Source of the DNA: Streptomyces sp. ITFR-16
Lineage (GTDB): Bacteria; Actinomycetota; Actinomycetes; Streptomycetales; Streptomycetaceae
Length of the DNA: 64,000 bases
NCBI RefSeq assembly: GCF_031844705.1
Contig: NZ_CP134609.1
Coordinates: 5,208,001-5,272,000, forward strand
Direction: 5' to 3'
The notes under the pieces are model-generated. The model was not told the DNA's origin and ran no database searches. It saw only the letters and a program-made list of their open reading frames with translations. The stretch's first letter is position 1, and every line of letters starts with the position of its first letter. This document shows, piece after piece, positions 6,941-48,786 of this stretch. Made by a program: the position numbers and the translations under genes.

Positions 6941-7498
6941 ATGCGTTCAATACCCCTTACGTTCTGTGCCGCCGCGGTGGTCGCGGCGACCCTGGTGCCC
7001 GCGTCCGTCGCACTGGCCGAATCCGGCTCCGGCCACGGGGACTCCCGGTCCCGGGCCACCCTCTCCGTCTCCCCGTCGTCCGTCGCCCCCGGTGGTGAGG
7101 TCGACCTGGAGGTCGACGGCTGCAAGGGCAAGGAGGCCAAGGGGAACTCCGACGCCTTCGTCTCCGAGGCACGGTTCTCGCCCGGCGACGGCAGGACGCT
7201 CTTCGCCGAGGCCCGGATCCGCTCGGACGCCGAGCCCGGCGACTACGACGTGCAGGCCATCTGCAAGGACGACAAGCACACCAAGGTGTCGGCCGTCCTC
7301 ACCGTCGCCCACCGCAGCCGGCCCATGCCGATCGCCCCGGTCCGCGCGGGCGGCGGCGGCACCGCCGTGCTCGCGGGACAGGCCCAGCAGGACGGACCCG
7401 GCACCGTGCACGCGGTGACCGGCCTCGCCCTGGCCGCCGTCGCGGCCGTCGCCGTCGCGTTCCGCAGCGCGCGCCGTCGCCGCCCGGCCACCGACTGA
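6941..7498 (+). CDS. Secreted membrane-anchored protein upstream of sortase
   Basis: A 185-residue protein. The signal peptide (LTFCAAAVVAATLVPASVALA) is cleaved near residue 26. An Ig-like beta domain follows (SVSPSSVAPGGEVDLEVDGC, two cysteines about 45 residues apart), then a Gly-rich spacer, a C-terminal membrane helix and an RRRR tail. I see no LPXTG or LAXTG motif. A strong AAGGAGG (6928-6934) precedes ATG 6941. Its stop is one base before the sortase start, so the two are co-translated. It may be the sortase partner, but this is inferred only from position. Function is unknown. Confidence 0.8.
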   Translation: MRSIPLTFCAAAVVAATLVPASVALAESGSGHGDSRSRATLSVSPSSVAPGGEVDLEVDGCKGKEAKGNSDAFVSEARFSPGDGRTLFAEARIRSDAEPGDYDVQAICKDDKHTKVSAVLTVAHRSRPMPIAPVRAGGGGTAVLAGQAQQDGPGTVHAVTGLALAAVAAVAVAFRSARRRRPATD

Positions 7499-7499
7499 C

Positions 7500-8231
7500 A
7501 TGTCCGCCTCGGACCGCTCGGCGGGGCACGGCAGGCTGCTCACCGGAGTGGCCTGGGCCGTACTCCTGCTGGGCCTGTGGCTCTGGGGCCGCGGCATCAC
7601 CGACGGCTCCGGCATCGGATCGGCCCCGACCACCGGCGATGTCGCCGCGGTCGGGCGCCCGCTCGGCGTGCCGCTGCCCCCCGCCCACGACCCGATCGAG
7701 GGCGCGGCACCGCAAAGCGTCGAGATCCCGTCGATCGGCATCCGGGCCCCCGTCGTCTCCCGGGGCCTGGACAAGGACGGGGCGATCGAGCCGCCGCCCT
7801 TCGAGACGCCGCAGACGGTCGGCTGGTTCGGCAGCGGCACCCAGCCCGGCGCCAAGGGCCCCGCCCTCTTCGTCGGCCATGTCGACACCGAGACCAAGCC
7901 CGCCGTCTTCTACGGGCTCAGCGCGGCCCGCCCCGGCGCCAAGGTCGAGGTCACCCGGGACGACGGCACGGTCGCCGAGTTCACCATCGACGACGTCCAG
8001 GTCTTCACCCGGGCGCGGTTCGACGCCCAGAAGGCGTACGGCCCCCGCAAGGACGGCCGGGCGGAGCTGCGGCTGATCACCTGCGGCGGCACCTACGACC
8101 GCGCCTCGCAGTCGTACACCGCGAACGTCGTCGTCTCGGCCTATCTGACCGGGGAGAAGTCCCGCGAGAAGGTGCGGGCCGAGGCGAAGGAGAAGGCGAG
8201 CGCGGCAGCCGGTGCGCGGAGCGACGGCTGA
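7500..8231 (+). CDS. Class F sortase
   Basis: A 243-residue transpeptidase with an N-terminal membrane anchor (about 14-30). The sortase barrel carries the catalytic His in FVGHVDTE, the Cys in LITCGG and a following Arg (TYDRAS), the class F pattern. It starts one base after the preceding stop. Class F enzymes in Streptomyces usually occur beside small secreted proteins, as here, and their substrates are poorly known. A low-complexity Lys/Glu/Ala tail of about 25 residues follows the domain. Confidence 0.88.
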   Translation: MSASDRSAGHGRLLTGVAWAVLLLGLWLWGRGITDGSGIGSAPTTGDVAAVGRPLGVPLPPAHDPIEGAAPQSVEIPSIGIRAPVVSRGLDKDGAIEPPPFETPQTVGWFGSGTQPGAKGPALFVGHVDTETKPAVFYGLSAARPGAKVEVTRDDGTVAEFTIDDVQVFTRARFDAQKAYGPRKDGRAELRLITCGGTYDRASQSYTANVVVSAYLTGEKSREKVRAEAKEKASAAAGARSDG

Positions 8232-9608: not shown

Positions 9609-11539
9609 GGCACCTCCACCCAGGTCCCCTCGGACGGGGTGCCCTTGTCGTCGGTGACGAAGAGCATGTACCAGCCGGACGGCACCAGCGCCCGGTTCTT
9701 CGGCACCGTCACCGAGATCCCGCCGTCGGTCTTCTTCAGGTCCAGCGCCACCGAGCGCTGGTCGGTGTCGGTGACATGCGTGACCGCGCTCGGCCGCATC
9801 AGCTTCGCCGACCTGATCGACGCGGCCTGGTTGGTGGTGAACATGGCCGTGCCGCCGCGCTTGATCCTTTTCGGTCCTGCGGTCAGCTCGGGCCGGGAGT
9901 CGCGGTAGAGGTACGGCGGGGTGTAGATCTCGATGCGCTGCTCGAAGACGCCGGGCCGGGTGTTGGCCTTGTCGGAGTAGAGCGAGTCGGAGCCGAAGAT
10001 CATGACCCGGCCGTCCGGCAGGAGCACCGACCCGGAGTGGTAGTTGCGCCCCACCCCGGGGTCCGCGACCCGCTTGTAGGTGTCCGACTTCGCGTCGTAC
10101 AACCGCGCCTGGAGGACGTCGGAGCCGCCGCGGCCCCGGTAGTCGTTGGATCCGCCGGTGACCAGCAGGGAGTCGTCGGGGAGCAGGGAGGCGCTCGGGT
10201 AGCGGGTGCCCTCGTCGAGGGACGCGCCGTCCTTGAACCGGGGGTCGGGGTCCTTGAGGTCGACCAGCCGGGACTTCTCGCTGGACTTGTCGGACTCGCC
10301 GACCCCGCCGCCGCCGATCACCATGAACTTCTCGTCCTGGGCCGGGGGCAGCCGTACGGTCGCCGAGGTCTCCATCTTGTCCGGGTCGCTCAGGCCGGGG
10401 ATCTTGGTGAACCTGTTGGTCGCCAGGTCCCAGACGCCGGGGGCGCGGCCGACGGTGGCCGGGCCGTAGCCGGCGTTGGACCCGGAGTAGAAGAGCTTGC
10501 CGTCGTTGAGCAGGAAGACCGCCGGATAGGTGGGGAACTTCCGGACGATGCCGGTGTACGTCCACTTCTTGGTCTTCGGGTCGTAGATCTCGTCCTTGCC
10601 GGGGACGATCTGCCCGATCTCGTCCAGCCCGGAGAGCGCGAGGACCTTGCCGTCCTTCAGCGTGGTGAGCGTCGGGTACCAGCGCGCCTCGTTCATCGGG
10701 TCGACGGTGATGTACTTCTCCGCCACCGGATCGAACTCGTAGGCCTCCCGGATGCCCTGGAAGTCCTTCTTGTCGAGGGCGAGCTTCTGGGCGATCCCGT
10801 AGACGTTGCGGGTGTCGGAGCCCGACAGCCCGGCTATCCGGTAGTTGTCCTCGGCGCCCGTCTCGTACGCCGTGCCGGACTTCTGCGCCTCGACGTAGAT
10901 CCGGCCGAGTCCGGGGTCGTTGCGCAGGAAGGCCCCGGTGTTCTTGTCGAAGACCTTGGTGGCCTTCTCCACCAGCACGGGGTCCTTGGTGACGAAGGTC
11001 TTGCCGTTGGCCTTGCCGGTGAATCTGGTGCCCGCGGGCAGCGTGATCGGCTTGTCCGGGTCCTCGTTGTGGACGACCATCAGGCCGCCGGCCTTGGTGA
11101 CGTCGCCCTTGAGCTTCTCGTAGCGCTTGGTGCCGCCGGCTATGAGCAGTTTGCCGTCGGGCAGTTGGGTGTGGCCGGAACAGAACATGTCCTTGGGCGT
11201 GGGTATGTTCTTGAAGGTGTTGGACTTCGGGTCCCACAGCACCGACCGGAAGGACTTGGCGTCGAAGTTCTTCTGGTTGTTGCCCGAACCGGCGACGAGC
11301 AGCACCTTGCCGGTGTGCAGCAGCGCCGCGTGGATCGTGTTGATCCGGAACTCGGAGGGGATGTCCAGGAAGTCCCAGTGGCCGTTGGCCGCCTTGTACT
11401 CCGGCTTGTTGATCTTGTAATCGTGGTAGCGCTCGGTGCTGAAGCGGTACAGCCACGGCCCGTTCGCTCCCGCGAGCGCGAGAACCACCGCCGTACTGAT
11501 CGCCATGCGGCGGGTACGGCGGCTCGGACGGTACTTCAT
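9605..11539 (-). CDS. glxA: Radical copper oxidase GlxA (galactose-oxidase-like)
   Basis: 644 residues. An Arg-rich N-terminus and membrane anchor (about 12-30) are followed by a seven-bladed Kelch-type propeller and a C-terminal Ig-like domain. The likely thioether-forming pair is Cys120 (DMFCSGH) and Tyr288 (EARWYPT), with Trp287 beside it. Further copper ligands probably come from FPTYP and NYHSG. GlxA oxidises glycans and is required with CslA for tip glucan deposition and Streptomyces development. Its ATG overlaps the cslA stop by 4 bp, so translation is coupled. Confidence 0.93.
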   Translation of the reverse strand: MKYRPSRRTRRMAISTAVVLALAGANGPWLYRFSTERYHDYKINKPEYKAANGHWDFLDIPSEFRINTIHAALLHTGKVLLVAGSGNNQKNFDAKSFRSVLWDPKSNTFKNIPTPKDMFCSGHTQLPDGKLLIAGGTKRYEKLKGDVTKAGGLMVVHNEDPDKPITLPAGTRFTGKANGKTFVTKDPVLVEKATKVFDKNTGAFLRNDPGLGRIYVEAQKSGTAYETGAEDNYRIAGLSGSDTRNVYGIAQKLALDKKDFQGIREAYEFDPVAEKYITVDPMNEARWYPTLTTLKDGKVLALSGLDEIGQIVPGKDEIYDPKTKKWTYTGIVRKFPTYPAVFLLNDGKLFYSGSNAGYGPATVGRAPGVWDLATNRFTKIPGLSDPDKMETSATVRLPPAQDEKFMVIGGGGVGESDKSSEKSRLVDLKDPDPRFKDGASLDEGTRYPSASLLPDDSLLVTGGSNDYRGRGGSDVLQARLYDAKSDTYKRVADPGVGRNYHSGSVLLPDGRVMIFGSDSLYSDKANTRPGVFEQRIEIYTPPYLYRDSRPELTAGPKRIKRGGTAMFTTNQAASIRSAKLMRPSAVTHVTDTDQRSVALDLKKTDGGISVTVPKNRALVPSGWYMLFVTDDKGTPSEGTWVEVP

Positions 11540-13449
11540 GGTTTACGTCCCCCAAGGGCGATCTGCATGGTCTCTTCGTTGCCGGGCCAGTGGGCCCCGG
11601 CCTGCGGGGCGCCGGCCGGTGGGCCGCTCGCGGGCGGCGGGCCCGCCCGGCGCTTCTTCTTCTCCGCGCGCACGGTGGACTGCCAGCCGAGGATCGGAGC
11701 CGCGGTGATCAGCAGCGCCAGCGCGGCCCAGGTGAGCATCGCCGGGTGGCTGTGGCCGAGGACGAACGACGCCACGATGGAGCCGCCGAAGACCAGGATG
11801 AAGAAGAGGTGGATGCGGAAGGTGCCGAAGAGGGTGTCCGGGCTGGACGAGTCGCCCTTGGGCGTCACCACGAAGGAGCTCTTGCGGCGCAGCACGGCGT
11901 CCATCAGCGAGCGGGCGTAGAGCGGGGCGGAGAGCGCGGACATCACCATGCCGGCCAGGCCGCCGGAGCCCTCGGGCTCGTGCGGCGAGACGTTGTGCCG
12001 GCGGTTCCAGATGTACAGCCCGATCTGGAGCGCGGAGGCGTTGCCGTACAGCATCATCCAGACCGTGGGGTCGATCTGCACACCCGAGGCGCCCATGCCC
12101 AGGAACAGCGCGCAACTGAGGGCGGCGAGGATCCAGTTCATGGCGGACATCGGATAGAAGATGATCATCATCGTGTAGTTGAAGAGCTTGCCCGCGGGCA
12201 GCGAGAAGAAGCCCTTCCAGTACTGCTTGAGGATCGTCTCGTACGTCCCGCGCGACCAGCGCAGCTGCTGGGTGAAGAAGTCCGTCCACGCGGTCGGGCC
12301 CTCGCCCACGGCCAGCACGTCCGGGGTGTAGACCGAGCGCCACTTGCGGCCGGTGTGCGGATTGCGGGCGCGGTGCATCTCGAAGCCGGTGGCCATGTCC
12401 TCGGTGATCGAGTCGTACAGCCCGCCGATCTGCTTCAGCGCCGTGATCCGTACCGCGTTGCTGGTGCCGACGAACATCGGCGCGCCGTACCGGTTGCCCG
12501 CACGCTGGATCAGCGCGTGGAAGAGGAACTGCTGGGACTCGGCGGCCTTGGTGACGAAGGTGTCGTAGTTGCCGTAGACCTGCGGACCGATGACGAAGCC
12601 GACGTCCGGGTCGCGGAAGTAGCCGAGCATCCGCTCCAGATAGTTGGGCATCGGTACGTGATCGGTGTCGACGGAGGCGAAGAAGTCGTACGCGTCGCCG
12701 TGCGCGTCGAGCCAGGCGTTGTAGTTGCCGTGCTTGGTCTTCGCCCGGTGCGGGCCCTTGGCCTGGTTCCAGTGCGCCACGCCCTTGCGGGAGAAGTGGT
12801 GCACCCCGAGCCGCCGGCAGACCTCCTTCACCGCCGGGTCGTCGCCCTCGTCGAGCAGCCAGACGTGCATCAGCCCGCGGTGGCGGATGCGGACGGCGGC
12901 CTCCAGGGTCTTCGTCACCATCTCCAGGGGTTCCTTGCCCGGGACGAAGGAGGTGAGGAAGGCGACCCGGGTGCCGGTCTCCGGCACGACCGGGACCGGG
13001 TCGCGCGCCACCAGCGTGGCGTGCGCGTTGGAGAGGACGTTCATGGTGCGGAAGAGCTCGATCAGACCGATCGAGACCAGCATCACGACGTCGAGGACCA
13101 GCAGCGTGTCGTTCTTGAGGTTCGGGTCGCGCTGGGTCCAGTGCTCGGGCTGCATCAGCCAGGCGAAGAGGCCGAGCGAGACGAGCGGGGCGGCGCCGAG
13201 CAGGAGCGTCGCACGGATGCGGTGCGGCTCCTGGGAGAGGAGCGAGCGGTACTTCACGGTGTACGGCTTGGCCGGATCGGGCTGGGTCAGTGGCCCGGCG
13301 AGCCGGCTGTAGTGCTCGTAGTCGTACCGTGGCAGCGCTTTCTTCTGCCGCCGCCGGTGGCCCCCGGTCCGCGGCTGCGGGGGTATCCGAAGCTGGGCGG
13401 TCCGGGAAGGGTCGTTGTCCTGCCGGGCGCCTGGCGGCGTCGACGTCAT
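11536..13449 (-). CDS. cslA: Cellulose synthase-like glycosyltransferase CslA (GT2)
   Basis: 637 residues. A basic disordered N-terminus is followed by two membrane helices (about 80-98, 115-132). The GT2 catalytic domain carries DEGDD (200-204), DTD (261-263), the catalytic base in ITED (348-351) and QQLRW (394-398). Several C-terminal membrane helices follow, then a Pro/Ala-rich tail. It is expected to polymerise a beta-glucan from UDP-sugar at hyphal tips. A G-rich SD lies about 7 nt before the ATG. It is first of a two-gene unit with glxA. Confidence 0.93.
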   Translation of the reverse strand: MTSTPPGARQDNDPSRTAQLRIPPQPRTGGHRRRQKKALPRYDYEHYSRLAGPLTQPDPAKPYTVKYRSLLSQEPHRIRATLLLGAAPLVSLGLFAWLMQPEHWTQRDPNLKNDTLLVLDVVMLVSIGLIELFRTMNVLSNAHATLVARDPVPVVPETGTRVAFLTSFVPGKEPLEMVTKTLEAAVRIRHRGLMHVWLLDEGDDPAVKEVCRRLGVHHFSRKGVAHWNQAKGPHRAKTKHGNYNAWLDAHGDAYDFFASVDTDHVPMPNYLERMLGYFRDPDVGFVIGPQVYGNYDTFVTKAAESQQFLFHALIQRAGNRYGAPMFVGTSNAVRITALKQIGGLYDSITEDMATGFEMHRARNPHTGRKWRSVYTPDVLAVGEGPTAWTDFFTQQLRWSRGTYETILKQYWKGFFSLPAGKLFNYTMMIIFYPMSAMNWILAALSCALFLGMGASGVQIDPTVWMMLYGNASALQIGLYIWNRRHNVSPHEPEGSGGLAGMVMSALSAPLYARSLMDAVLRRKSSFVVTPKGDSSSPDTLFGTFRIHLFFILVFGGSIVASFVLGHSHPAMLTWAALALLITAAPILGWQSTVRAEKKKRRAGPPPASGPPAGAPQAGAHWPGNEETMQIALGGRKP

Positions 13450-13923: not shown

Positions 13924-13931
13924 ACTCTGCG

Positions 13932-14005
13932 TGCGCCGCCAGGGACTCGAACCCCGGACCCGCTGATTAAGAGTCAGCTGCTCTAACCAACTGAGCTAGC
14001 GGCGC
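13932..14005 (-). tRNA. tRNA-Lys (CTT), copy 1
   Basis: A 74-nt cloverleaf on the minus strand: acceptor GCGCCGC/GCGGCGC, D-arm GCTC..GAGC, anticodon loop CTCTTAA (anticodon CTT, reads AAG), T-loop TTCGAGT, discriminator A, CCA not encoded. It is identical in sequence to the copies at 21599 and 41379, and all three share the 8 nt GTCAGCAG immediately upstream. A TAGAGT hexamer at the right distance upstream is a possible -10. Confidence 0.97.
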
Positions 14006-21591: not shown

Positions 21592-21598
21592 GTGTCTG

Positions 21599-21672
21599 TG
21601 CGCCGCCAGGGACTCGAACCCCGGACCCGCTGATTAAGAGTCAGCTGCTCTAACCAACTGAGCTAGCGGCGC
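21599..21672 (-). tRNA. tRNA-Lys (CTT), copy 2
   Basis: Identical over all 74 nt to the copy at 13932, with the same anticodon loop CTCTTAA. The same GTCAGCAG octamer precedes it. TATTAT at 21687-21692 (minus strand) is a good -10 candidate about 15 bp upstream. Confidence 0.97.
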
Positions 21673-37816: not shown

Positions 37817-39673
37817 TCAGGCCTCCAGGGCGCGGGTGCCGATCAGTTCCGCGATGCGCTCCGGGGCGACCGCGCGCGAGTAGAGCCAGCCCTGTCCGGT
37901 GTCGCAGCCGATCCTGCGCAGCCGTTCCGCCTGGCCGGCCGTCTCCACGCACTCCGCGGTGACGGTCAGGCCCAGGCGGTGGGCCAGCTGGACCATCGCC
38001 TCGACGATCGTCTCGTCGGCGGGGCTGGGGTGCGTCCCGTCCTCGTAGCGGAAACCGCGTACGAAGGCGCCGTCCAGCTTCAGTACGGAGACCGGCAGCC
38101 GGCTGAGATAGGCGAGGTTGGAGTAGCCGGTGCCGAAGTCGTCGATGGCGATGCGGACGCCCATGTCGCTGAGTGCCTGGAGCGCCTGGAGCGGCCGGCC
38201 CGCCGACCCCATCACCGCGGACTCGGTCAGCTCCAGCTGGAGCAGCGCCGGGTCGAGACCGGTCTCCGCGAGGATCTCCGCGACATCGGTCACCAGGTCG
38301 GAGTCCCAGACCTGGCGCACCGCGACGTTGACGCTGATGAACAGCGGCGGCTCCGCCGGATGGTCGAGCTGCCAGCGCCGGGCCTGCCGGCACGCCGACC
38401 GCAGCACCCACCGCCCGAGCTGCACGATCGAACCGTCCTCCTCGGCGATCGCGACGAACCGATTCGGCGAGAGCATGCCGAACTGCGGGTGGTTCCAGCG
38501 CACCAGCGCCTCCACCCCCCGCACGACCCCGTCGGCCATGCCGACCAGCGGCTGGTACTCGATGGTGAACTCGCCGCGCTCCACGGCCGGGCGGAGATTG
38601 GACGACAGGGCCTGACGGGTCATCCGGTGGGCGTTGCGCTCCGGGTCGAAGAGCGTCCAGCGGGCCTTGCCGTCGGCCTTCGCCCAGTACAGCGTCGTGT
38701 CGGCGGCCTGCATCAGGCCCGTGGCCGAGGTGCCCGCGACGGGCCGCTCCACCACGCCGATCGACGCGGAGACCGAGAGCCGCTGCCCGGCCAGGTCGAA
38801 GGGCTGCTGCACCGCGCTCAGCACCGCGCGGGCGAGATCGGTCAGCTGCTGCGTACCGGTGGACGACTCCACGAGGATCGCGAACTCGTCGCCGCCCAGG
38901 CGCGCCACCAGATGGGCCCCGGTCGGGTGCGGGGCCTCCTGCTCGGCGCAGTCCGTGAGCCGGGCCGCGACGGCGGCCAGCAGCCGGTCGCCGACACGGT
39001 GGCCCAGGGTGTCGTTGACGGCCTTGAAGCCGTCCAGGTCGAGGTAGACGAGCCCGATCCGGCCCCGCCCGGGAAGGCTGTCGTCGTGGTACGGAGCCGT
39101 CTCCAGGACGGCCGAGAGCCGCTCGAAGAACAGCGTCCGGTTGGGCAGCCGGGTCACCGGGTCGTGCATCTGGAGATGGCGCAGCCGCTTCTGGAGCTCG
39201 CGCCGGTCGCTGACGTCCGCGACGGAGAGCAGCACCTGACCGGGCGCGGTTCCCTCGGCCGGCTCCTGTGCCCCCGGCATCGGGACGACGGTGATCTCGG
39301 CCCACAGCGAACGCCCGTCGGGGTGCTTGAGCCGGCGGGTGCAGCGGAAGCGGGAGCGCCGGCCGTGCAGCACCTCGCGGTACGCGTGCCAGGTGCGGCC
39401 GTCCGCCGCGAGGTCGACCAGATCGGATGCGGACTGCGCGGTCAGCGCCGCAGCGCCGACGCCGGTCAGTGCCGCGAGCGCCTCGTTGGCGGTGACGATC
39501 AGCCCTTCGTGGTCCACGACGGCCATCGGGAGCGTGGCGGCCCGGAACGCCGCCCGGTAGTCGTGCGCCTCGGAGCCGGGCGGCCACGTCTCGTGACGCT
39601 CCGTGTCCGCAGGGGGCGGGGCAGAGGGTGCTGTGCCTTCCGGGGGCCTGCGCCCTTCGGAGGTTTCGCTCAC
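37817..39673 (-). CDS. cdgA: PAS-GGDEF-EAL cyclic-di-GMP protein (CdgA-like)
   Basis: 618 residues. A PAS domain (about 38-165; VVDHEGLIVTANEAL) is followed by GGDEF (about 170-330, with intact RLGGDEF) and EAL (about 345-610, with EALVRW, ELTES and DDFGTGYSN). Both catalytic signatures look intact. It would make and/or degrade c-di-GMP, which in Streptomyces controls development through BldD. Its order and the neighbouring genes suggest CdgA, a known BldD target, but I found no convincing BldD box upstream. GGGAG lies about 7 nt before GTG 39673. No membrane helices are seen. Confidence 0.88.
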   Translation of the reverse strand: MSETSEGRRPPEGTAPSAPPPADTERHETWPPGSEAHDYRAAFRAATLPMAVVDHEGLIVTANEALAALTGVGAAALTAQSASDLVDLAADGRTWHAYREVLHGRRSRFRCTRRLKHPDGRSLWAEITVVPMPGAQEPAEGTAPGQVLLSVADVSDRRELQKRLRHLQMHDPVTRLPNRTLFFERLSAVLETAPYHDDSLPGRGRIGLVYLDLDGFKAVNDTLGHRVGDRLLAAVAARLTDCAEQEAPHPTGAHLVARLGGDEFAILVESSTGTQQLTDLARAVLSAVQQPFDLAGQRLSVSASIGVVERPVAGTSATGLMQAADTTLYWAKADGKARWTLFDPERNAHRMTRQALSSNLRPAVERGEFTIEYQPLVGMADGVVRGVEALVRWNHPQFGMLSPNRFVAIAEEDGSIVQLGRWVLRSACRQARRWQLDHPAEPPLFISVNVAVRQVWDSDLVTDVAEILAETGLDPALLQLELTESAVMGSAGRPLQALQALSDMGVRIAIDDFGTGYSNLAYLSRLPVSVLKLDGAFVRGFRYEDGTHPSPADETIVEAMVQLAHRLGLTVTAECVETAGQAERLRRIGCDTGQGWLYSRAVAPERIAELIGTRALEA

Positions 39674-41369: not shown

Positions 41370-41378
41370 CTCCGTCTG

Positions 41379-41452
41379 TGCGCCGCCAGGGACTCGAACC
41401 CCGGACCCGCTGATTAAGAGTCAGCTGCTCTAACCAACTGAGCTAGCGGCGC
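41379..41452 (-). tRNA. tRNA-Lys (CTT), copy 3
   Basis: 74 nt, identical to the copies at 13932 and 21599, again preceded by GTCAGCAG. Its first 10 nt overlap the 3' end of the leftward prim-pol-like CDS, whose TAG stop lies inside the tRNA acceptor/D-arm junction. Transcription could therefore come partly from that gene; a TAAGGT hexamer within the CDS end is a possible -10. Confidence 0.97.
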
Positions 41453-43134: not shown

Positions 43135-43473
43135 CTATGACCGCGGTTGGTTCAGCAGACTGCGGCCGAACTCGACCATCTTGCGCGCGTAGTCCTCGGT
43201 CCACTCCGCCCGCTCCGCGATGTCCGCGGTCGTGAGCCGGTCGAACCGGCGCGGATCCGCCAGCTGGGCGGCGGCGACCGCCTGGAACTCGACCGCGCGG
43301 TCGGTCGCCGCACGGAACGCCAGCGCGAGTTCGGTCGCCCGGCCGAGCAGCTCCTTGGGATCGTCCATCGACTCCAGGTCGAAGAAGTGCTCGGGGTCCG
43401 CGACCGCCGCGGACGGCTCGAAGAGCAGGGGTGCCGGGCGCAGCCGCTGCTCGTTCCGCTCGGGTTGTGGCAT
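43135..43473 (-). CDS. Small conserved protein with HTH-like C-terminus
   Basis: 112 residues. A strong GGAGGAGG about 9 nt before the ATG supports the start at 43473. The N-terminus is proline-rich. A predicted helical part follows (PKELLGRATELALAFRAATDRAVEFQAVAA), then RFDRLTTADIAERAEWTEDYARKMVEFGR, which looks like a helix-turn-helix. It is last of the leftward nuclease-helicase operon, 105 bp after the helicase stop. It may bind DNA or partner proteins; no family is recognised. Confidence 0.7.
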   Translation of the reverse strand: MPQPERNEQRLRPAPLLFEPSAAVADPEHFFDLESMDDPKELLGRATELALAFRAATDRAVEFQAVAAAQLADPRRFDRLTTADIAERAEWTEDYARKMVEFGRSLLNQPRS

Positions 43474-43578
43474 GTGGTTGTTCCTCCTCCGGTGGGCCCG
43501 ACGGCCACCCTCCATTGTCCAGCCCTCCGCAAGGGCGCTCACGAGGGAGTGCGACGCCCCCGCCGCGCCCCCGCGCAC

Positions 43579-44913
43579 TCAACACGCCCACCGCACCCGG
43601 TGTTCCGCGAGATGCGCCAGCACCGCGTGGTTCGCCTCCCAGCCGTCCGGGAACTTCACCGTCACGCCCAGCTGGACCGGCTCCGTCGAGGGATGCTCGT
43701 CCAGCAGTTCGGCGACCCCCTCGCGGCAGACCACAATGCAGGCGTGCCGGTGCCGGGACGCCAGCACGCACAGCCGGCCCGTCTCCAGATGGAACGCGGT
43801 CGCGTCCGGGCGGCCGGAGAGCGGATGCAGCACCACCGTCACGTCGAACTCCCGGCCCTGGAGCCGGTTCGCGGTGTCGACCGCCACCCCCGTCACCCCC
43901 AGCTCCGCGAGCGCCGCGCGCACCGCCGCCGCCTGGTCGCGGTGCGCCGTGCCGACCGCGATCCGGTCCGCCGTCACCGGCGCCGCGTCCGGCGACCGCT
44001 CACTGGTGGCCGCCCCGCCCCGGTCCAGGAGCCGGCGCACCACCAGGGCCACCGCCCGGACCGCCTCCGGGTCCGTGCGCGGGGTGTGCCGGGCCGGCAG
44101 CTCCAGCAGCCCCCAGCCCGACTCCGCCGCCTCGTCCAGCACCCGGTCCGCCGCCGACCCGTCCGACGCGACGCCGAAGGACAGCTTCCGGTCGCCGTGG
44201 TCCGTACCGCTGCGGAACGGGGTGTACGGGTAGAACGCGTCCGACACCAGCGGCGCGGCCGAGGCCGGCAGCCGCCAGGAGACCGGCAGCCGGTGCTGCG
44301 GCAGCTCCGGATTGTGCGCGAGCAGCGTGCTCACCGCACTGGCCGACGGGTCGTAGCTCAGCCCCGCCCACTGGTCCGCGCCGACGATCGAGAACGGGTC
44401 CAGCTGCCCCGGGTCCCCGACGAACAGCGCCCGCTCGAAGAGCCCGGCGACGGCCAGCAGCGCGTCCGAACGCATCTGGTACGCCTCGTCCACGATCGCA
44501 TGGCCCCACGGCTCCACGTTCTTCACATGGGCCCACTTGGCCGCCGTCGAGATGACGATGTCGAGCCCCGCCAGATCCGCCGCCTTCGCCGACTTGCGTA
44601 CGTTGTCCAGCCCGTCGAGCACCTTGTCGTACGGGTCGGAGTCGCTGCTGTGCAGCCGGCCGACCGGCAGCCCGGGGTCCTTCTCGGCGAGCCGGACCAC
44701 CAGGTCGTCCACCTGGGCGTTCGTCTGCGCGACCACCATCAGGGGGCGCCCCGCCGCGGCCAGCTCCAGCGCGGCGCGCACCACCAGCGTCGACTTCCCC
44801 GCGCCCGGCGGGGAGTCCACCACGATGCCGCGCGCCGTGCCGTTCAGCGTGTCGTCCAGGATCCGCGCGGTGGCCAGGCCCGCCGCCGCGCCGGGGTCGA
44901 ATACGGCCGTCAC
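43579..44913 (-). CDS. UPF1/Dna2-like superfamily 1 helicase
   Basis: 444 residues with the SF1B motif set: Walker A SPPGAGKST (34-42), motif II VDEAYQ (141-146), motif III VGDPGQLDPF (165-174), motif IV-like WRLPASAAPLVSDAFYP, motif V VAVDTANRLQGREFDVTVV, and motif VI region LCVLASRHRHACIVV. The DEA(x)Q and FYP/VDxxQG-like motifs place it with UPF1/Dna2/AAA_11-AAA_12 proteins rather than UvrD. GTG 44913 overlaps the upstream stop (GTGA), so translation is coupled to the unknown protein before it. Likely an ATP-driven nucleic-acid translocase acting with the nuclease two genes upstream. Confidence 0.85.
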   Translation of the reverse strand: MTAVFDPGAAAGLATARILDDTLNGTARGIVVDSPPGAGKSTLVVRAALELAAAGRPLMVVAQTNAQVDDLVVRLAEKDPGLPVGRLHSSDSDPYDKVLDGLDNVRKSAKAADLAGLDIVISTAAKWAHVKNVEPWGHAIVDEAYQMRSDALLAVAGLFERALFVGDPGQLDPFSIVGADQWAGLSYDPSASAVSTLLAHNPELPQHRLPVSWRLPASAAPLVSDAFYPYTPFRSGTDHGDRKLSFGVASDGSAADRVLDEAAESGWGLLELPARHTPRTDPEAVRAVALVVRRLLDRGGAATSERSPDAAPVTADRIAVGTAHRDQAAAVRAALAELGVTGVAVDTANRLQGREFDVTVVLHPLSGRPDATAFHLETGRLCVLASRHRHACIVVCREGVAELLDEHPSTEPVQLGVTVKFPDGWEANHAVLAHLAEHRVRWAC

Positions 44914-46526
44914 AGCAGGTCCTCCGGGGTCACGGGGTCGGGGCGCTCCGCCGTCGCACCGGCGCCCGGCGGGCCGCCGTGGGTCCACGGGGTCTCCTCC
45001 GCCTCCGGCAGCTGCGGGCCGCCGCGCTGGTCGTGTTCGAACAGGGTCCAGGCGATCCGGTCGCCCGGCTCAGGGACGGACCCCGGCGCCGGCTCCTTGC
45101 CCCGGCCCATCCGGTCCATGATCCGCAGCACCAGCGCGGGCGCGGCACCCGCCGCCTCCCCGTCCGCCGGGACGTACCCCGCGAACTCGGCGGTCTGCGG
45201 CTTCCCGTCCAGCGAGCGGTAGACCTTGACCCGCTCGCCCAGCTGCGGCCGCTCGTCGGTCCGGACGGTGACCAGCGGGCGCGGCGAGGGGCGCTTGGAC
45301 TCGCTGTACGCCATCTCCACCGCCACCACCTCGCCGAGGAACGCCTCGCCCGCCAGCCGGCGGCCGGCCAGCACCAGCGGATCGTCCAGCGCCTCCTGGG
45401 CCTCCAGCTGGGCCTGCGCCGTCTCCCGCGCGGCCAGCTTGCGGGCCGCCGTCACCGCGTCGTCCCGGCGCGGCTGGGGCGGCTCCCCGGCGCGCACCCG
45501 GTCGCGGTGGCCGGTGAACGACCAGCGGTCGCGGGTCCAGCGGTCCTCGGTCCTGCTCCCCTCGGGCAGCTCCCGCAGCAGGTCGAGCCCCCGCCACACC
45601 GCGTCCCAGGTCGGCCGCAGCACCCCGGCCAGCAGCGCCCTGATCTCCCGCTCGGCCGCCGTCAGCGCGGCCAGCCGGGCATCGGCCGCCAGCCCGTCCT
45701 CGGCGGCGGCGAGCGAGCCGCGCGCCCGGTCGTACCGCTCGATCGCCGGGGCCAGCAGCCGGTTGTCGAAGTCCGGGTCGGTGGCCGGGCCGGCCGGCGG
45801 GCACAGCAGCTGACCGGCGGCGTCCCGGGCCAGCTCGGCGCGGAGCGCGGCCTCGGCGCCGGACTCGCCGGCCGGCGGGTCGATCCAGGCGAGCAGGGCG
45901 CCCAGATGCTGGTCCTCCAGCGTGGACTGGCCGCTCGCCCAGTGCCGGTTGAGCAGATCCGTGCAGGCCAGCAGCAGCGAGGAGCCCGGCACCCGGGCGC
46001 GCTCGCCGTAGTGCGTCAGCCAGCGGCCCAGCAGCGGGACCCGGGCCGGCGCCGGGTACGGGGTGTCGGGGTCGTCCTCGGCGGTGCGCCGGAACCGCAT
46101 CGAGCGGCCGAGCAGCCGGACGAACTCGATGCCCGCCCGGCTCGGCACGATCAGCTGGGCCGCGTCCGTGCACAGCTCGGTCTCGACCTTGGCCTTCTTG
46201 CCGGTCGCGGGGTCCGTCTCGTTGCGCTCGGCCGGTTCGATCACGTCCGTGTACGCCTCGATGTGCGGCAGGACCGCCTCGGCCAGCTCGGCGAGGAACG
46301 CGGAGCGCAGGTCCCGGTCGCGCGGCTGGGCCACCACCAGCAGCCGGGGCGCGTCCCGGTCGGTGCCGACGAGGGCGCCGAGCGGGGCTCCCGCCTCGCC
46401 CGCGGTGGTGAGCGGCACCAGGACGAGCGGCCGGTCGGTGAGCCGGCGGTGGCGGACGGTGGCCGTGGGCCGGGCCCGGCCGCTCTCCACGGCCTCCAGC
46501 CGGGCCAGGGTGCTGATCAGTGACAT
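44910..46526 (-). CDS. Unknown 538-residue protein of the nuclease-helicase operon
   Basis: 538 residues, no signal peptide or membrane helix. Features: an N-terminal beta-rich part (TVRHRRLTDRPLVLVPLTTAGEAGAPLGALVGTD), a helical middle with LLACTDLLNRHWASGQSTLEDQHLGALLAWIDPP, an Arg-rich DRWTRDRWSFTGHRDRVRAG, and a C-terminal part with VAVEMAYSESKRPSPRPLVTVRTD. I recognise no catalytic motif. It starts within the nuclease 3' end (10-bp overlap) and ends inside the helicase start (4-bp overlap). Constant coupling to both suggests a structural or loading subunit of one complex. Confidence 0.8.
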   Translation of the reverse strand: MSLISTLARLEAVESGRARPTATVRHRRLTDRPLVLVPLTTAGEAGAPLGALVGTDRDAPRLLVVAQPRDRDLRSAFLAELAEAVLPHIEAYTDVIEPAERNETDPATGKKAKVETELCTDAAQLIVPSRAGIEFVRLLGRSMRFRRTAEDDPDTPYPAPARVPLLGRWLTHYGERARVPGSSLLLACTDLLNRHWASGQSTLEDQHLGALLAWIDPPAGESGAEAALRAELARDAAGQLLCPPAGPATDPDFDNRLLAPAIERYDRARGSLAAAEDGLAADARLAALTAAEREIRALLAGVLRPTWDAVWRGLDLLRELPEGSRTEDRWTRDRWSFTGHRDRVRAGEPPQPRRDDAVTAARKLAARETAQAQLEAQEALDDPLVLAGRRLAGEAFLGEVVAVEMAYSESKRPSPRPLVTVRTDERPQLGERVKVYRSLDGKPQTAEFAGYVPADGEAAGAAPALVLRIMDRMGRGKEPAPGSVPEPGDRIAWTLFEHDQRGGPQLPEAEETPWTHGGPPGAGATAERPDPVTPEDLL

Positions 46527-47728
46527 GCGGTGCGGCCCTCCAGAGCCTCGGCGCGCAGGGCCGCCGCGCGGCGCAGGGCGGCGACCGCGGGATCCGCCGG
46601 ATCGCCCTCCTTGCCCGCGGCCGCCGCGAGCACCTCGCCGACCGTGGTCAGCCCGCCCAGCTCGCCGCGCACGCCGCGTCCGAGCGCCTCGACGGCCCCG
46701 GCCGCGCGTGCCTTGCCCCGGCAGTGGAACGCCAGCTCGCAGGCGGCCAGGCACTCCGGCGCGTACGCCGCGGCGACGGACTCGACCGCGCTGTCCAGCT
46801 CCTCGGGCGAGCGCTCCGGGTCGAACGTGGTGCCCTCGGGCAGGGCGGCCGCGATCTCGTCGATCCGGGTGAGCCTGGTCAGCTGGCGGCGGGTGACCGC
46901 GCGCTGCTTGCGCACGTCGACGACGGAGGCGGCCGGCAGGTTGGAGAAGTCCTTGGGGCAGACCAGCAGCACCCGGTGGCCGACCCCGGCGCCCTCGGTC
47001 ACCTCGGCGACCCGCTCCAGCGCCAGGACGTACACGGCGGACTGGCGGGCCGCCGCGCCGACCTTCGCGGCGTCGGCGGAGCTGTCGATCATGGGGAAGG
47101 ACTTGATCTCCACGACGGTCCAGGTGCCGTCGGGGTGGACCACCACCGCGTCCGGCTCCAGATAGGCGGGGGAGCCCGCCACGTCCAGGGCCAGCATCGG
47201 GTGGTCCAGCAGCGACCAGCCGCCGGCCCCGGTGGCCTCCCGCAGGGCGAGCGCGGTGCGCGCGGCCCGGCCCTCGGGCCCGGCCGCCGTCAGATCCGGC
47301 ACCCGGACGTCCCGGGGCGGCTCGCCCCGGCCGCCGAGCCGCTCGTGCAGCAGGCGCATCAGCTCCGTACCGCCGTCGGCCTTGACCCTGGCCTCGAAGG
47401 CGTTGCCCCGCATGAAGGCGAACTGGGACTGGCCGAAGGGGGCCGGAGAGCCGAGGGCGGTGGCGAGCGCGGCCTTGTCGACCCCCGCCCCGTCGAGCAG
47501 GGCGCGCCGCTTGCAGCCGGGGTTGGCGGCGAGGGCGGCGAGCGCGCGGGCGTCCAGCGGGCGCGGGGCGACCGCCGGGCCCCTCAGCTCAGCGAGCCGC
47601 CGTCGCAGCGTCACCGCCCCCGGCTCGCCCTGCGGAGGCGGGGACGTCGGCCGGGGCAGGTGGGCCGGCCGGCGCCGCTGCGTCGGTGGGGTCTGCGGAG
47701 GAGGTCCGCTGGCCGGGGATTCGCTCAC
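46517..47728 (-). CDS. RecB-type PD-(D/E)XK nuclease with predicted 4Fe-4S cluster
   Basis: 403 residues from GTG 47728. Nuclease motifs: GNAFEARV (Glu112), EPDAVVV (Asp193), VEIKSF (Glu208, Lys210) and RQSAVY (Gln229, Tyr233), the RecB/Cas4 arrangement. One Cys before the domain (Cys72, NPGCKRR) and three after it (Cys326, Cys330, Cys336 in ECLAACELAFHC) match the split iron-sulphur clusters of Cas4, AddB and Dna2, with C-x3-C-x5-C spacing. The start is uncertain: ATG 47758, GTG 47728 and GTG 47614 are possible, and the frame overlaps the PAP2 3' end. First gene of the operon. Confidence 0.8.
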   Translation of the reverse strand: MSESPASGPPPQTPPTQRRRPAHLPRPTSPPPQGEPGAVTLRRRLAELRGPAVAPRPLDARALAALAANPGCKRRALLDGAGVDKAALATALGSPAPFGQSQFAFMRGNAFEARVKADGGTELMRLLHERLGGRGEPPRDVRVPDLTAAGPEGRAARTALALREATGAGGWSLLDHPMLALDVAGSPAYLEPDAVVVHPDGTWTVVEIKSFPMIDSSADAAKVGAAARQSAVYVLALERVAEVTEGAGVGHRVLLVCPKDFSNLPAASVVDVRKQRAVTRRQLTRLTRIDEIAAALPEGTTFDPERSPEELDSAVESVAAAYAPECLAACELAFHCRGKARAAGAVEALGRGVRGELGGLTTVGEVLAAAAGKEGDPADPAVAALRRAAALRAEALEGRTACH

Positions 47729-48560
47729 CCGCGGAAGTCTTGCATCCGGCACTGACATCCGGGGACTTCGTGGTCGCGGACACCCGTGCGAAGCGGGTCA
47801 CGGCGGCCTGCTTGGCCCGGTCGGCGAGGCGCATCACGGGCCGGGCGAGCAGGGCCCCGACGCCCATGACGGCGGCGCCGGCGACGGCGTCGAGGAAGTA
47901 GTGGTTGGCGGTGCCCATCACGACGAAGGTGGTGAGCAGCGGGTAGGCGATGCCGGCGGCCCGGACGAGCGGGTGCTTGCCGTGGCGCCACAGGAGGATG
48001 CCGCACCACAGGGACCAGCCGACGTGCAGGCTGGGCATCGCCGCGTACTGGTTGGTCATGCCGCCCATGCCGCGCGGCGCGCTCGCCTCGGCGCCCCACC
48101 AGCCGTACGAGCTGTACTGGGCCATCGTGTCGACGAAGCCGTGTCCGGCGGACAGCAGCCGGGGCGGGCAGGTCGGCATCAGCGTGAAGCCGATCAGGCC
48201 GAGCATGGTCGAGGTCATCAGCCAGGTGCGGGCCCTGCGGTAGGCCGCCGAGTGGCGCCGGAAGATCCAGATCAGGACGGCCGGGGTGACCAGGTAGTGC
48301 AGGGAGGCGTAGGCGAAGTCGGCGGGTATGCCTATGGAGGCGTGCGCCGTGAACAGCCGGTTGAGCGGGTGTTCGGCGTTGAGGAACAGGGTCTGTTCCA
48401 GATGAAGGATGCGCAGACCGTGGTCGACGGCCGTGGACACGTCCCCGCGGACCAGGAGTCTGCCGCCGGAGTATGCCGCGTACACCAGGGCCAGGAGCGG
48501 CAGCTCGGTCCACCAACGAGGCCGTTGGTGCGGCGCGGGCGCGGTGGTGGCATGCGGCAT
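47589..48560 (-). CDS. PAP2-superfamily membrane phosphatase/transferase (Ipt1/Aur1-like)
   Basis: 323 residues with six predicted membrane helices. The PAP2_3 signatures are [21 protein letters not shown] (catalytic His) and [13 protein letters not shown] (His and Asp). Relatives act on lipid phosphates or transfer inositol phosphate. The C-terminal 60 residues are low-complexity and cytoplasmic. GGAG 9 nt before ATG 48560 supports that start. The 3' end overlaps the predicted nuclease 5' end by up to 140 bp in another frame, so one of the two boundaries may be misplaced. Confidence 0.85.
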
Positions 48561-48786
48561 CCGGAAGTTCTCCATCATGTGTTCATGCGGCCGACGGCGG
48601 GCGTTCAACCGTACGGTGCACGTCGGCCTTGATTCCCCCGGGGGTGCCGGTCCGCACCCCACAGGTGCGAGGACGCTGGTGCGGCCCCCCGGGTTGCCTC
48701 GCGGGCAGGTGCGGGATGATGGAAATCCGGACGATGATCTCAGATCCAGCATCCTGAGGTCACAGTTTTCGAGGGAGAGCCGTCAC

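Follow-up and report, generated by a model that had tools for sequence, protein, structure and literature searches.

The 64,000-nucleotide stretch of Streptomyces sp. ITFR-16 studied here (the window) harbours on its minus strand a row of three overlapping open reading frames (ORFs), which we call NUC, MID and HEL and which are a real, conserved and unnamed three-gene unit. Formation of a complex by the three proteins is likely, and we lean towards the view, based on sequences and predicted structures, that this complex would work like Dna2. This view is drawn from the order and overlaps of the genes, the structure models of NUC and MID, the profile matches of HEL, the linkage of the genes, their common absence from some genomes, the empty site found there, a distant trio in another family and the SbcD and SbcC genes next to some of the loci. 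Neither NUC nor MID is matched above the cut-off or threshold used by any model of Pfam, NCBIfam, PADLOC or PHROGs, and a literature search limited to open-licence PMC papers gave no description of the trio.

46517..47728, minus strand: NUC, 403 residues, predicted Fe-S-type PD-(D/E)XK (RecB/AddB/Cas4-like) nuclease; alternative start GTG 47614
44910..46526, minus strand: MID, 538 residues, predicted RNase H/DnaQ-like domain without catalytic acids, helical stalk and UPF1-type beta-barrel
43579..44913, minus strand: HEL, 444 residues, UPF1/Dna2-type SF1B helicase core (RecA 1A and 2A) with only about 33 residues before motif I

Linkage and distribution of the three genes

Positions 46517-46526 are common to the NUC stop and the MID start (10 bp), and positions 44910-44913 to the MID stop and the HEL start (4 bp), which bears out the original prediction, made from this DNA alone, of three genes overlapping by 10 and 4 bp. 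The start of NUC (GTG 47728 or GTG 47614) is uncertain because relatives outside Streptomyces start near residue 39.

MID was found in 233 of 246 Streptomyces genomes and in 15 of 396 Actinomycetota genomes sampled over the phylum, in one of these only at E 3.5e-4. The set of loci stems from a profile scan of contigs with an alignment led by a Nonomuraea sequence and comprises the best 80 of 530 relatives, which biases it towards the kin of this sequence; they belong to Streptosporangiales, Micromonosporales, Pseudonocardiales, Frankia, Nocardia and Streptomyces. A tblastn search of 50,697 phage records gave no match and a scan of IMG/VR likewise none, which is not informative either way; in a plasmid collection tblastn found three records, one of them an 11.9-Mb Nonomuraea replicon.

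NUC adjoins MID on the same strand at less than 700 bp in all 80 loci with MID, while HEL is the direct neighbour of MID in 66 of them and occurs within the locus in 72. Ten genomes with HEL missing or distant were probed and all ten have it, which covers the eight loci without HEL; in genome G204 it is about 36 kb away, locus L138 has an inverted HEL copy within the locus, and L143 is ended by a contig edge. Because NUC is beside MID in every locus, and HEL is either in the locus or in the genome, the association of the three genes is not due to chance.

The genes are also missing together. Among the 13 Streptomyces genomes without MID, eleven show neither NUC nor HEL, a number to be taken as an upper bound because several of these genomes are fragmented or less than 90% complete (e.g. 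G444, G537, G583). The remaining two are fragmented: in G491 parts of both NUC and HEL are seen at the edges of contigs, and in G500 HEL is nearly complete, 271 bases away from where a contig starts, and NUC gave no match. Five regions from the trio-less genomes were fetched, one of which (L195) ends at a contig edge. In all four readable regions the trio is missing in front of a small gene, SML, and the matched flanking genes stand in the order of the trio-bearing genomes (the flank names PAP2, PGM, XRE, MTase and Pept are our own labels); PAP2 was matched in three of the four. In the window these two genes are:

43135..43473, minus strand: SML, small conserved Streptomyces neighbour, outside the system; start probably ATG 43473
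47589..48752, minus strand: upstream border of the empty site, a gene that we take to be PAP2-like from its sequence and not from a family search

SML, a small HTH-like protein which the original prediction had counted in, was rejected as a fourth subunit: it is present in 8 of the 11 trio-less Streptomyces genomes, stays at the empty site when the trio is missing, and was found in no examined locus bearing H281, a protein discussed below.

A distant trio was identified in another family (L062, 5400-11604, minus strand, genome G252), where NUC, MID and HEL stand in the same order with 82, 62 and 225 bits against the profiles of the main group. It is followed there by a TM0106-like protein without helicase. 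In a tree of 73 out of 100 rows (27 near-copies were left out by hand), the window falls in one 16-row clade with the Streptomyces loci L126, L128, L137 and L143 (SH-aLRT 100). Thinning at 82% identity reduced the alignments A2-A5 from 80, 74, 59 and 71 to 37, 33, 43 and 24 sequences, and ten H281 rows as well as two MID rows whose starts were overlong were then removed by hand.

Predicted nuclease, middle and motor subunits

Two stretches of NUC are of special importance:

47030..47395, minus strand: active-site region, residues 112-233 (E112, D193, E207-x-K209, Q229, Y233)
46721..46753, minus strand: C-terminal cysteines C326-x3-C330-x5-C336, which together with C72 (codon 47513-47515) are the putative ligands of a 4Fe-4S cluster

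RecB motifs and four cysteines placed as in Cas4, AddB and Dna2 had been read in NUC from the sequence, and both readings stand with a small correction. In an alignment of 34 sequences E112 (33/34), D193 (31/34), E207 (33/34), K209 (34/34), Q229 (33/34) and Y233 (34/34) are conserved, the ExK being located at 207-209 and not at 208-210. The cysteines C72, C326, C330 and C336 are each kept in 34/34 and presumably carry a 4Fe-4S cluster, but their C-x3-C-x5-C spacing is one residue longer than the C-x2-C-x5-C of Dna2, AddB and Cas4.

The predicted NUC structure (pLDDT 88.7, pTM 0.83, 34 sequences) matched RecE, an Argonaute-associated Cas4-family protein and a putative exonuclease in a Foldseek search (E 3.5e-4 to 6.6e-4). 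Comparison with PDB structures gave the Cas4-containing 7mi4 (Z 10.5), Exo5 (Z 8.8), AddB (Z 7.9 over model residues 37-353), AdnA (Z 7.8) and Dna2 (Z 6.7 over 28-343), and the spans of the structural matches take in both cysteine-bearing stretches. The model thus resembles known nucleases, as the original prediction would have it, and the assignment of NUC to the Cas4/AddB/Exo5/Dna2-type fold is well supported by the modelling. In profile searches Pfam gives only a sub-threshold PDDEXK_1 match (E 0.017), neither NUC nor MID has a match in NCBIfam or PADLOC (E ≤ 1) or PHROGs (E ≤ 0.01), and a PDB profile search with the NUC alignment gave no meaningful match (two designed helical proteins aligned over 31 positions, E 5e-5 and 5e-4). 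The NUC of a second copy in Streptomyces genome G246 (L060:10720-11835, minus strand) has lost its active site (E112 to H, ExK to LxR); SNF2-NOV_C and DUF1156 genes adjoin it.

For MID three regions can be delimited:

45777..46439, minus strand: RNase H-like domain, about residues 30-250 (limits set by us), from PDB structure comparison
45384..45776, minus strand: stalk helices, about residues 251-381, from DSSP of the predicted model
45036..45362, minus strand: beta-barrel (1B-like), residues 389-497, from structural matches to Senataxin and Sen1

This 538-residue protein had been described as lacking any recognised motif. That holds for the profile libraries, which gave no match above cut-off, but the model (pLDDT 89.8, pTM 0.87, 36 sequences) has a stalk and a barrel resembling that of the UPF1 family. 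Long helices (251-381) are followed by strands (395-494), and residues 389-497 superimpose on Senataxin (8ftm, Z 8.5, 89 residues, 3.0 Å) and on Sen1 (8rao, Z 8.3; 5mzn, Z 8.2; 87-89 residues, about 3 Å). Because this region is also positioned before a UPF1-type motor without barrel, the reading of the C-terminal half as helical stalk and Senataxin/Sen1-like barrel is moderately supported.

The other 47 of 50 structural rows for MID are DNA polymerases, mostly of family B, matched via their exonuclease region (Z up to 9.2, 178-207 residues aligned, model span 30 to at most 393). The N-terminal half may therefore be, with moderate confidence, an RNase H-type (DnaQ-like) domain without catalytic acids. 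Residues 34-41, which we took as the catalytic DxE stretch from the aligned ranges, contain no D or E in any of 36 aligned rows, suggesting that the domain is probably not an enzyme. Further invariant residues, namely H195-W-A-x-G-Q-S-x-x-E-D205 and much of TPWTHGGPP near the C-terminus, seem to mark a different conserved role of MID. RNase_H_2 (PF13482) has no Pfam match on MID at E ≤ 1, a PDB profile search with the MID alignment gave nothing meaningful, and GPAT_C was set aside as below the Pfam cut-off (E 0.019).

HEL was correctly recognised as an SF1 helicase with UPF1/Dna2-type motifs: AAA_11 and AAA_12 match above the Pfam gathering cut-off (43.6 vs 27 and 31.7 vs 27 bits), and its profile finds SMUBP2 (E 2e-10) and DNA2 (E 4e-9) in the PDB, with UPF1 also among the sequence matches. 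PPGAGKS and GDPGQLDPF are invariant in 25/25 aligned rows, as are D, E, Y and Q of VDEAYQ. By sequence, the assignment of HEL as a UPF1-like SF1B motor is well supported. With motif I beginning near residue 34, HEL is too short at its N-terminus to hold the barrel found ahead of this motif in SMUBP2, DNA2 and UPF1. In two Streptomyces genomes tandem repeats (169 bp, L049:12218-12740; about 269 bp, L051, minus strand, ~7300-7850) lie directly downstream of HEL, each unit holding the HEL 3' end and a GC-rich hairpin, and in L053 and L056 the C-terminus of HEL differs.

The three proteins could also be separate enzymes encoded in one operon, with HEL acting on RNA as UPF1 does. HEL is indeed separable from the other two genes: for 14 of 80 loci it is shifted away, lies in inverted orientation or is encoded in another part of the genome. 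UPF1-subfamily helicases are RNA/DNA helicases according to PMC4716839. However, the barrel missing from HEL seems to be present in MID, and the three genes are absent together and have been kept together in a distant family, so we regard separate enzymes as very improbable.

Comparison with Dna2, fused proteins and other systems

According to PMC4716839, Dna2 is composed of an OB domain, an Fe-S nuclease, a beta-barrel carried by a stalk that two long helices form, and a motor of 1A and 2A, of which barrel, stalk and motor match the Upf1 subfamily, and it threads single-stranded DNA through a tunnel. The trio appears to offer the same parts in the same order, with an Fe-S RecB-type nuclease (NUC), stalk and barrel (C-terminal half of MID) and a UPF1-like SF1B motor (HEL). 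The original idea of a split Dna2-like system is thereby strengthened, as MID models as stalk and barrel between nuclease and motor. The data do not support counting the trio as a Dna2 family member in the strict sense, because it is distributed over three chains instead of one, carries a putative extra RNase H-like domain in MID and has no room for an OB domain, the NUC model consisting of about 35 unstructured residues and then nuclease helices. NUC also differs by its C-x3-C spacing, and its structural score against Dna2 is only Z 6.7. We do not file the trio as Dna2; judged by its anatomy it may work like Dna2.

In the mechanism we favour, MID would clamp HEL and dock it on NUC. HEL would draw single-stranded DNA 5'-to-3' past the MID barrel into the NUC tunnel, where NUC would cut, and the RNase H-like part of MID may have evolved into a scaffold or a sensor of ends. 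In this way DNA ends that are broken, flapped or foreign would be degraded or resected; the likeliest role seems to be the threading and breakdown of DNA ends, either in repair or in attack on foreign DNA.

Several points weigh against this Dna2-like reading, besides the fact that the count of trio-less genomes is an upper bound and that HEL does not directly adjoin MID in 14 of 80 loci. The distant MID of L062 matches only the first 292 of 494 profile positions and not the barrel half. With the whole MID model Foldseek gave no E below 0.014, and its top-probability rows (probability 1.00 over about 100 columns) belong to subunits of F1/G1-type ATPases, EF-Tu following lower in the list; for this reason the RNase H-like assignment is only moderate and the barrel is to be seen also as a common shape. 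The structural Z of 8-9 for MID lies only a little above the 7-8 typical of models without a clear match. An SOS-box pattern with two mismatches has six sites in the window against 2.0 expected, none of them near the operon. Finally, profile comparison of NUC and MID with fused proteins of the TM0106 type was not significant.

These fused proteins (TM0106 family, TIGR03491) have nuclease, RNase H-like domain, pre-motor region and helicase in the same order as the trio. They differ from it in being one chain and in their DxE (D320, E322 of L175), which is invariant in 8 aligned rows, whereas MID has none. Fused ORFs of 1091-1209 residues were obtained from nine out of ten stretches; the alignment (A6) comprises eight of the ten, one near-copy and one stretch without full fused ORF being left out. 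L175, the sole fused ORF scanned, matches TIGR03491 at 15-496 and then an IGHMBP2-type (UPF1-like) helicase.

The trio might be a dissected descendant of a TM0106-type protein and share the role of this uncharacterised protein. HEL aligns with the helicase part at the C-terminus of the fused proteins (hhalign E 1e-21 over 363 columns), and the putative RNase H-like fold of MID is located where RNase_H_2, the middle of the fused protein, sits. The distribution fits as well: of the 396 genomes in the phylum sample 48 have TIGR03491 above cut-off, none of them among its 12 Streptomyces genomes (two of which have weak matches below cut-off), and neither TIGR03491 nor RNase_H_2 has a match in the genome of the window, the controls being positive in 7 and 11 of 14 genomes. 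Against such a descent stand the lack of significant profile similarity of NUC and MID to the fused proteins, neither of which matches TIGR03491 at an NCBIfam E ≤ 1, and the presence of both forms in genomes G050 and G252. We consider it possible, if somewhat doubtful; a common origin of split and fused forms by gene splitting is attractive but unproven.

AddAB and AdnAB likewise combine a bacterial RecB-type nuclease with an SF1 motor for DNA ends, and NUC matches the folds of AddB and AdnA. Their motors are SF1A UvrD-like, whereas HEL is UPF1-like and SF1B. The best PADLOC and NCBIfam matches of HEL are Mokosh (MkoA/MkoC, 29 bits) and PLuB_AAA (59 bits), with which only the helicase core is shared, as NUC and MID match nothing there. 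Membership in Mokosh was rejected, there being no full-length MkoA/MkoC match but only helicase-core parts; for PLuB our search found no relevant paper.

Genomic surroundings and possible role

In 59 of 80 loci NUC is preceded by a gene for a protein of mostly 255-300 residues, H281, for which no Pfam, NCBIfam or PHROGs match of note was obtained in the sequences scanned. UVR was set aside as below the Pfam cut-off (E 0.08), and a PDB profile search with the H281 alignment gave no meaningful match (rabenosyn at E 0.027). In the genome of the window H281 has no match at E ≤ 1, in a search that had no positive control and is therefore uninformative. H281 may be a fourth, probably regulatory or DNA-binding, partner in most of the non-Streptomyces operons seen.

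In 8 of 99 loci the trio is adjoined by SbcD, which has SbcC next to it (the two correspond to Mre11-Rad50). Seven of the eight loci have H281; the eight are a second Streptomyces copy, two Streptomyces plasmids, a Kibdelosporangium, three Amycolatopsis and one Micromonospora. The two plasmids show the row H281 - NUC - MID - HEL - JetA - JetB - JetC - JetD (Wadjet), with SbcCD divergent alongside, and SbcCD may be able to supply opened ends to the complex. In Micromonospora L094 a GmrSD_N (GmrSD-type restriction) gene lies between MID and HEL (10579-12915) and a DUF4011/MTES_1575 helicase-nuclease gene lies upstream. At the same place between MID and HEL, L096 (10622-12919) has a gene that starts almost identically to this GmrSD-type gene. 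An nSTAND3 gene is found near the Amycolatopsis copy L099, and other neighbours of H281-type loci include a Schlafen-type helicase and type I methyltransferase genes, along with many genes that are ordinary by Pfam.

A PADLOC search (E ≤ 1e-8) assigned 224 models to 110 neighbours from 29 H281-type loci and 7 to 78 neighbours from 13 H281-less loci, a comparison that is indicative only because one methyltransferase matches many models and inflates the counts. The neighbour sets were based on crude scripted gene calls and trimmed by hand, and they draw on 29 of the 30 H281-type loci selected and on 13 of the 16 other loci selected; the H281-less loci L081, L103, L106, L107, L113, L117, L125 and L127 are left out. 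By PADLOC, the neighbours in the sampled H281-less loci (Streptomyces chromosomal, Micromonospora, Actinoplanes) are for the most part ordinary, although one of them matches PD-Lambda-2_C. A GGDEF/EAL-type gene (37817-39673, minus strand, in the window) is a conserved neighbour of the trio in Streptomyces and Micromonospora. The window also contains three identical tRNA-Lys(CUU) genes within 28 kb (13931-14005, 21598-21672 and 41378-41452, minus strand), possibly attachment-site duplications or plain gene copies.

The original prediction had left the choice between DNA-end processing and phage defence. The neighbours of the H281-type relatives favour this pair of roles, with no choice between the two. 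One explanation would be that the trio, the Streptomyces copy included, is primarily an anti-phage or anti-plasmid system, in which the complex attacks incoming DNA and H281 or the SbcCD/Wadjet partners take part in island forms. The two Wadjet plasmids, the GmrSD_N and DUF4011/MTES_1575 genes at L094, the SNF2-NOV_C and DUF1156 genes at L060, nSTAND3 near L099 and the PADLOC counts all point in this direction, and none of the three genes is found in 11 of 246 Streptomyces genomes, which argues for a dispensable system. However, the Streptomyces copy is near-core, occupies one site, forms one clade and is surrounded by ordinary genes, which is unusual for a defence system, and both the inflation of the PADLOC counts and the many ordinary neighbours of H281-type loci weaken the comparison. 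Defence as the primary function of all forms is therefore rather unlikely in our view.

Within the Dna2-like reading, the form kept by Streptomyces would lack H281, occupy one fixed place in the chromosome and serve, without being indispensable, as an enzyme that maintains the genome or acts against foreign DNA. Only tentatively do we suggest a wider scheme, in which H281-NUC-MID-HEL would be a four-subunit Dna2-like machine against foreign DNA that takes SbcCD-opened ends and can extend Wadjet, the three-subunit form having been domesticated in Streptomyces as a genus-core DNA-end enzyme.

End processing is usually credited to AddAB/AdnAB-type enzymes. If the Dna2-like reading is true, Streptomyces has a further nuclease-helicase beyond these, named by none of the profile libraries searched. 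Its division into motor, barrel/scaffold and nuclease would allow the threading mechanism of Dna2 to be dissected gene by gene. Moreover, as Mre11-Rad50 and Dna2 are partners in eukaryotes, the links to SbcCD and Wadjet suggest that a bacterial counterpart of this partnership may exist, in repair or in defence.

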